From contig JAJEHF010000065.1 of the NCBI GenBank assembly GCA_022823865.1, positions 62,001 to 126,000 on the forward strand: a stretch of 64,000 nucleotides of DNA, in the 5' to 3' direction. Of the stretch, positions 62,165-63,499 are shown piece by piece. The number at the start of each line of letters is the position of its first letter. Positions within the stretch are counted from its first letter, which is position 1. The translations under genes were made by a program, and so were the position numbers. This DNA comes from Bryobacterales bacterium (lineage in GTDB: Bacteria; Acidobacteriota; Terriglobia; Bryobacterales; UBA6623). Under the pieces are notes generated by a model, which was not told the DNA's origin, made no database searches, and was given only the letters and a program-made list of their open reading frames with translations.

Positions 62165-63499
62165 ATGGCCTCTCACATCCACGATCGAGCGGTGGGCACG
62201 CTGACGCGAGAGCTCAGCAGGATCGTTTCGCAAGAGGTGCGCGATCCGGCGGTAGTAGCCATCCGAGTGAGCAAGGTCGAGCTTTCGCAAGACAAGCGAA
62301 ACGCACACGTCTTGGTGGCGTTCTGGGACCCCAAGGACGGCGAAGAGCCGGGCCGTGAACCGTTGGAAGCCCTCGAGCGCGCGACCCCGTTCATTCGCAA
62401 GTCGCTGGGCCGCAGCTTGCGCATGCGCCACGTGCCGGAACTGCGTTTCTCGTACGATCTGGCCGAGCAGCACACCAGTCGCATTGAGACGCTGCTCAAG
62501 GGCATTCGCGACGAAAGCAAGAAGGGGCTTGGGGTACTGTTCGCAGCCATCGCCCTGCAAGCAGCCGGGACCGCTGAGGTTTCAGCCCTAGAACGACTCG
62601 AATCCTCAGCAGCAATCATGGGAAGCGAGTTCCGGATAGCCTGCTACGCCCCTACCAAGAAAGTCGCCGCCGGAGCAGTCACCGCCGCCTTTGACGAAGT
62701 TAGGCGAGTGGATGCCCTGCTGAGCAACTACAAGCAGGACAGCGAATTGAGCAGGGTTAACCGAGAGGCCAGTCGTGGCGAAGTACAGGTGTCGGAGGAA
62801 CTGGCAGCACTGCTGGACCGCTGCCTGAGCTACTCCCGTGCAAGCGAGGGTGCCTTCGACATCACCGTCGGGGCCCTAGTCAAGGCTTGGGGGTTCTATG
62901 GAGGCGAGGGCAAGATGCCCCGCCCCTGGACTCTGTGGTGGGCGAGGAGGCACACCGGGTATCAGCACCTGCTGGTGGACCAGGCGAAGGGGACAGTACG
63001 GTTTACGCGGTCGGGCTTGCAGCTGGACCCGGGAGGTATCGGTAAAGGCTATGCAGTGGACCGTGCGATCGCGGCTCTACGAGAGTATGGAGTCGAGACC
63101 GCGCTAGTCAGCTCAGGCGCGAGCAGCATCTATGCGCTAGGAGCGCCGCCCGACAACGCCGATGGCTGGAATCTGGACGTACGGGGAGCCGACGCCAACG
63201 ACAGCGAATTCATGACCGTGACACTGAAGAATGAGAGTCTGTCGACCTCCGGCTCCTACGAGAAGTTCTTCGACAAGGACGGCACGCGCTATGGCCATAT
63301 CCTCGACCCGCGCACGGGGCAGCCCGCGCTGGGCATGACCGCGGTGTCCGTGATTGGGCCGAACGCGATCGACACGGAGGCCTGGTCGACCGCGCTGTTT
63401 GTGAATGGCGCCAAATGGGCGCGCAAGCATGGCGTCCCGGAGGGGCGGGTGTTGCTCTGCCCCGAGGGCGAGGCTTGCGGCTGGCTCGCCCAGGAGTGA
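62165..63499 (+). CDS. RbfA-ApbE fusion: ribosome-binding factor A joined to FAD:protein FMN transferase
   Basis: 444 residues in one uninterrupted frame. Residues 1-118 are a full RbfA (RELSRIVSQEVRDP, KRNAHVLVAFWD, ELRFSYDLAEQHTSRIETLL), the 30S maturation factor. Residues 121-136 are hydrophobic (GLGVLFAAIALQAAG) like a signal peptide. Residues 141-444 are ApbE, which flavinylates exported proteins: IMGSEFRI, LDPGGIGKGYAVD, HILDPRTGQPA, DTEAWSTALFVNG. Between the parts no ATG, GTG or TTG occurs before the Met of IMGSEF, so ApbE cannot easily start alone. If made as one chain, RbfA would stay cytoplasmic and ApbE periplasmic. Confidence 0.85.
   Translation: MASHIHDRAVGTLTRELSRIVSQEVRDPAVVAIRVSKVELSQDKRNAHVLVAFWDPKDGEEPGREPLEALERATPFIRKSLGRSLRMRHVPELRFSYDLAEQHTSRIETLLKGIRDESKKGLGVLFAAIALQAAGTAEVSALERLESSAAIMGSEFRIACYAPTKKVAAGAVTAAFDEVRRVDALLSNYKQDSELSRVNREASRGEVQVSEELAALLDRCLSYSRASEGAFDITVGALVKAWGFYGGEGKMPRPWTLWWARRHTGYQHLLVDQAKGTVRFTRSGLQLDPGGIGKGYAVDRAIAALREYGVETALVSSGASSIYALGAPPDNADGWNLDVRGADANDSEFMTVTLKNESLSTSGSYEKFFDKDGTRYGHILDPRTGQPALGMTAVSVIGPNAIDTEAWSTALFVNGAKWARKHGVPEGRVLLCPEGEACGWLAQE

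Follow-up and report, generated by a model that had tools for sequence, protein, structure and literature searches.

The 30S ribosome-binding factor A, RbfA, is regarded as a soluble cytosolic factor, and ordinary members of the family end at about residue 115-130. ApbE is a periplasmic enzyme. A single reading frame that supplies two proteins by way of an internal signal sequence is exemplified by FbcH of Bradyrhizobium (cytochrome b / c1), a precursor that is cut into two proteins. In the stretch of Acidobacteriota DNA (order Bryobacterales) analysed here, which we call the window (64,000 nucleotides in all), RbfA and ApbE meet in one gene: a complete RbfA is followed in frame by a complete ApbE, with a signal-peptide-like linker of 40 residues between them (Table 1). 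A literature search returned no paper joining RbfA and ApbE, the two names occurring together only in an unrelated pangenome survey, and a search on RbfA fusion proteins found none.

The first-pass annotation of this DNA had proposed that both proteins share a frame and that a membrane-like segment lies at residues 121-136, and both proposals are borne out. The frame runs from an ATG at 62165 to a TGA at 63497-63499 with 0 internal stops, and the most hydrophobic 12-mer of the encoded protein, LGVLFAAIALQA, spans residues 122-133. The N-terminal part matches the Pfam RBFA family over residues 8-111 (PF02033; E 1.9e-21, 76.7 bits, cut-off 34.7), exceeds the cut-off of TIGR00082 rbfA (73.9 bits versus 51.15) and is matched by sequence to the solved RbfA structures 1jos (E 7.8e-16) and 7afl over residues 7-120. 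The C-terminal part matches the Pfam ApbE family over residues 152-419 (PF02424; E 2.3e-72, 244 bits, cut-off 25.6) and, over residues 146-437, the solved FAD:protein FMN transferases 4xdt (E 1.9e-38) and 3pnd; its score against the NCBIfam ApbE equivalog PRK10461, 141.7 bits, is far under the cut-off of 498. An AlphaFold model of the fusion, for which 6 close sequences were used, was too poor to interpret (mean pLDDT 44.6). The RbfA-ApbE fusion is real and genuinely in-frame.

Table 1. Features of the rbfA-apbE gene, with positions in the window and residue numbers of the encoded protein.
Feature	Residues	Positions	Strand	Evidence
rbfA-apbE fusion ORF	1-444 (stop codon TGA)	62165..63499	+	Stop-free over its whole length in 17 genomes
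RbfA domain	8-111	62186..62497	+	RBFA PF02033; 1jos and 7afl sequence matches; genome's only RbfA
RbfA C-terminal tail, as putative basic n-region of internal signal peptide	112-120	62498..62524	+	Alignment; basic cluster in most homologues
Hydrophobic core of putative internal signal peptide	121-135	62525..62569	+	Top Kyte-Doolittle 12-mer in 17/17 homologues; dN/dS 0.18
c-region, with candidate cleavage by signal peptidase I behind Ala141 (V-S-A/L, cut at the slash)		62570..62587	+	Sequence pattern, by simple scales
ApbE catalytic domain	152-444 (Pfam match 152-419)	62618..63496	+	PF02424; solved FMN transferases matched
Counterpart of V. cholerae ApbE Ser241	Ser362	63248..63250	+	17/17 homologues
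Counterpart of His257	His378	63296..63298	+	16/16 homologues covering the position
Counterpart of Asp285	Asp403	63371..63373	+	15/16 homologues covering the position; Ala in G246

The catalytic triad of Vibrio cholerae ApbE consists of Ser241, His257 and Asp285 (PMC12052999), and the fusion has kept it, as judged from residue spacing and alignment to solved structures. Where solved ApbEs carry G-G in the flavin pocket, the fused protein reads S-G-A-S-S (window 63092-63140, residues about 310-325); relatives of the family f2 likewise have S-S at this position, which marks it as a subfamily trait, and the substitution may alter the binding of flavin or substrate. The genome of the window holds two ApbE genes besides the fused one. 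Its sole FMN_bind protein lies outside the window (G000, C82:27938-28231), about 3 kb from one of these other ApbE genes (C82:30888-31715), and these two neighbours appear more likely to form an enzyme-substrate pair than the FMN_bind protein and the fused ApbE.

The same fusion is present in related genomes. A search across 257 genomes of the order Bryobacterales found matches running from RbfA to ApbE without a stop in 17 genomes, 15 of the family f1 and 2 of the family f3, and all fused-clade relatives are stop-free at the junction, the genes being separate only in the outgroup f2. Within f1 the fused gene occurs in all eleven genomes of the window's own genus, g1 (the match in G250 ends at a contig edge), and in the genera g2, g3, g5 and g6; both f3 genomes carry it. 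Five close relatives also turned up in the GTDB contig collection; they duplicate five genomes of the window's genus and were counted once. A profile built from the 17 fusions detected no RbfA-ApbE fusion outside f1 and f3 in samples of 399 genomes of the class and 396 of the phylum, a search that could miss a distant RbfA joined to another domain. That the open junction is a sequencing or assembly artefact, with a stop codon missed, is vanishingly improbable: nothing in favour of an artefact was found, and it is ruled out by the concordance of 17 independent assemblies from seven genera and two families, including one in a single contig (G256) and one in 3 contigs (G241).

Purifying selection acts on RbfA, linker and ApbE, and the linker is as constrained as RbfA. 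In the window's subclade, dN/dS is 0.20 for RbfA, 0.21 for the linker and 0.12 for ApbE, these values being means over related pairs among six close relatives, without error bars. Each of the 17 fused-clade genomes, that of the window included, has exactly one match to PF02033, which is always the fused gene. The RbfA part is expected to carry RbfA function, since it is the only RbfA found in these genomes. The neighbourhood of the gene seems to be rearranged even between close relatives: between the window's own locus, L001, and L013, a relative 95% identical to it, the DNA upstream of the gene, read in the fusion frame, differs almost throughout except for its last few codons.

The linker looks like a cleavable signal peptide, with a basic n-region, an uncharged run and small residues at -3 and -1. 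Basic clusters (KKR, RKRARK and the like) occur in the RbfA tail of most homologues; the net charge of the n-region in the window's protein is only about +1. The core varies widely in sequence, yet remains the most hydrophobic stretch of the protein in every homologue, and small residues precede the conserved start motif of ApbE in 17/17 linkers. Judged by simple scales, 16/17 fused linkers have Ala at position -1 and a small residue at -3, G240 (L024) having only an L-Q-G/A type site, and close relatives of the window read A-S-A/L at the putative cleavage site. In mean hydrophobicity (2.27 versus 2.67), in the length of the uncharged run (19 versus 17) and in the frequency of A-x-A-type sites, the fused linkers are similar to the signal peptides that separate ApbEs carry, 25/26 of which contain such a site. 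As evidence of cleavage these sites carry little weight, because Ala-rich linkers yield them by chance.

The same features bear on whether the protein could instead remain uncleaved, a possibility raised by the first-pass annotation, as a type-II membrane protein that would permanently keep RbfA on the cytosolic side of the inner membrane and ApbE on the periplasmic side. An internal hydrophobic segment with predicted N-in orientation is present in 17/17 homologues, and the uncharged runs range from 13 to 24 residues, those of several homologues reaching 20-24, which suffices for an anchor. ApbE is, moreover, typically membrane-anchored (PMC12052999), and a protein anchor could substitute for the usual one; a lipid anchor is unlikely, because no cysteine, and so no lipobox cysteine, occurs anywhere in the linker of the window's protein, a lipobox-like LLAC being found in L025 only. 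Against permanent anchoring stand the short and Ala-rich core of most homologues, which is like that of the separate ApbE signal peptides of f2, and the near-universal A-x-A-type sites. An uncleaved anchor is a rather unlikely outcome on this evidence, and cleavage into two proteins would be at least as likely.

A different route to a separate ApbE would be initiation of translation within the frame, the bulk of ApbE arising from an internal start and the full fusion being an incidental read-through product. The first-pass annotation had pointed to the lack of any ATG, GTG or TTG ahead of the Met in the first motif of ApbE, and had taken it to imply an in-frame loss of stop and start codons or a type-II membrane fusion. 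The lack holds for the window, where the frame has none of these codons between residue 112 and Met152, but it fails as a general argument, since only 3/17 homologues (L001, L022 and L027) have a linker without one. In the other 14, GTG, TTG or ATG codons occur in frame here and there, for the most part inside the hydrophobic core, and Met152 itself is invariant. No start position in the linker is conserved across the 17 homologues, however, and internal initiation is for this reason not a shared route to ApbE. An ApbE begun within the core would lack a basic n-region and one begun at Met152 would lack a signal peptide, and none of the 17 genomes has a stop between the domains. Production of two proteins by internal initiation is accordingly a very improbable account of the gene.

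The likely origin of the fusion can be read from the family f2, where rbfA and a signal-peptide-bearing apbE are separate genes; matches that span the full length there contain one stop at the junction. At 23 distinct f2 loci, picked by their best ApbE matches and so not a census, the two genes are close neighbours in 21, about 0.8 kb apart in one, and in one there is no rbfA nearby. Their junctions are TGAATG or TAAATG, 4-nt ATGA overlaps or short gaps; the earlier suggestion that stop and start codons were lost in frame finds support in these arrangements, in which a TGA or TAA is directly followed by ATG or the genes overlap by 4 nt. At many of the rbfA/apbE loci infB is found just upstream, and in several an ORF that we take to be DUF503/YlxP-like lies between infB and the pair. 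The fused gene still stands beside infB in g2, g5, g6 and f3, and infB is located elsewhere in g1 and g3. Among outgroups, no rbfA was found next to the ApbE genes of the 13 Terriglobia checked, and the adjacency of rbfA and apbE seems to be a feature of the order Bryobacterales.

With eight other Terriglobia as the root, a tree of IF2 (infB) unites f1 and f3 (99/94) against f2 (100/97). Since the fused lineages form one clade in this tree, the fusion probably took place once, in the ancestor shared by these two sister families. Two independent fusions would be permitted by the unrooted ApbE tree, which is less clear and places f3 beside f2 (92/94, no star); a single origin is preferred in view of the rooted infB tree.

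One lineage within the fused clade has departed from this state. The genus g4, which the infB tree nests within the fused clade of f1, shows no RbfA match in G242, G243 or G244 (93-99% completeness), and at its loci L030, L028 and L032 apbE stands alone at the place that the fusion occupies in relatives, directly after ylxP, with a 4-nt stop/start overlap (ATGA or TTGA). We read this as the RbfA part having been lost and apbE retained. Such a loss would fit the proposal that the RbfA part of the fusion has ceased to be a ribosome factor, serves only as an extended leader by which ApbE is exported, and is itself disappearing, a proposal that we nonetheless judge improbable: in the fused genes RbfA scores well over its cut-offs, is under selective constraint, is the sole RbfA of 17 genomes and is far longer than a signal peptide requires. 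A PF02033 match is also absent from fifteen f2 genomes, some of them more than 90% complete (G058, G077, G108, G134 and G169), possibly because the assemblies have gaps or because RbfA has truly been lost.

From these sequences we infer an N-in topology, export and cleavage of the ApbE part, and a fate for the RbfA part, along the following lines. In the f1/f3 ancestor, a translationally coupled rbfA-apbE pair would have lost the codons that ended rbfA and began apbE, so that a single polypeptide is now produced, whose RbfA domain would fold in the cytosol. The basic RbfA tail and the old hydrophobic core of ApbE would together act as an internal N-in signal sequence, routing the ApbE domain via the Sec machinery into the periplasm, its place of action. 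Signal peptidase I probably cleaves near residue 141 and releases free periplasmic ApbE. RbfA would be left with a short hydrophobic C-terminal tail, and would leave the membrane only once this remnant had been trimmed away. We hold it fairly probable that this is an old and conserved fusion with a cytosolic RbfA and an internal signal peptide that exports ApbE, cleavage being the probable next step. The data are compatible with a passive fusion, tolerated because cleavage parts RbfA from ApbE. That the fusion functions as a unit, bringing 30S maturation to the inner membrane or tying the supply of RbfA to the state of Sec and so coupling export with ribosome assembly, is an attractive but unlikely extension.

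Both protein families are known, and what is new is the combination of domains with a signal peptide buried between them, its occurrence in two taxonomic families and its position as the sole RbfA of its hosts. The fusion amounts to a natural experiment, in which RbfA either functions in a membrane-bound form or, although a ribosome-assembly factor, depends on signal peptidase for its release. The split, fused and RbfA-less states found in close families also preserve a clear record of how a fusion arises from coupled genes and then loses one partner.

Compared with bacterial RbfA (PF02033 / TIGR00082), the fusion shares the full-length KH-type domain, in single copy per genome and scoring above both curated cut-offs, but beyond the usual end of RbfA it continues into a hydrophobic stretch and then another enzyme. 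Compared with the FAD:protein FMN transferase ApbE (PF02424), it keeps the catalytic domain, the triad and a signal-peptide-like segment just ahead of them; this segment, N-terminal in ordinary ApbE, is here internal, behind a cytosolic domain, and in the window's protein lacks a lipid-anchor cysteine. The adjacent rbfA and apbE genes of f2 have the same gene order as the fusion, mostly behind infB/ylxP, and the signal peptide in the same place, and differ in the stop and start codons that part them. A parallel in design is FbcH, which likewise consists of one ORF with an internal signal peptide and gives two products across or in the membrane. The parts of FbcH, however, share one complex, whereas RbfA and ApbE serve the unrelated processes of ribosome assembly and periplasmic flavinylation.
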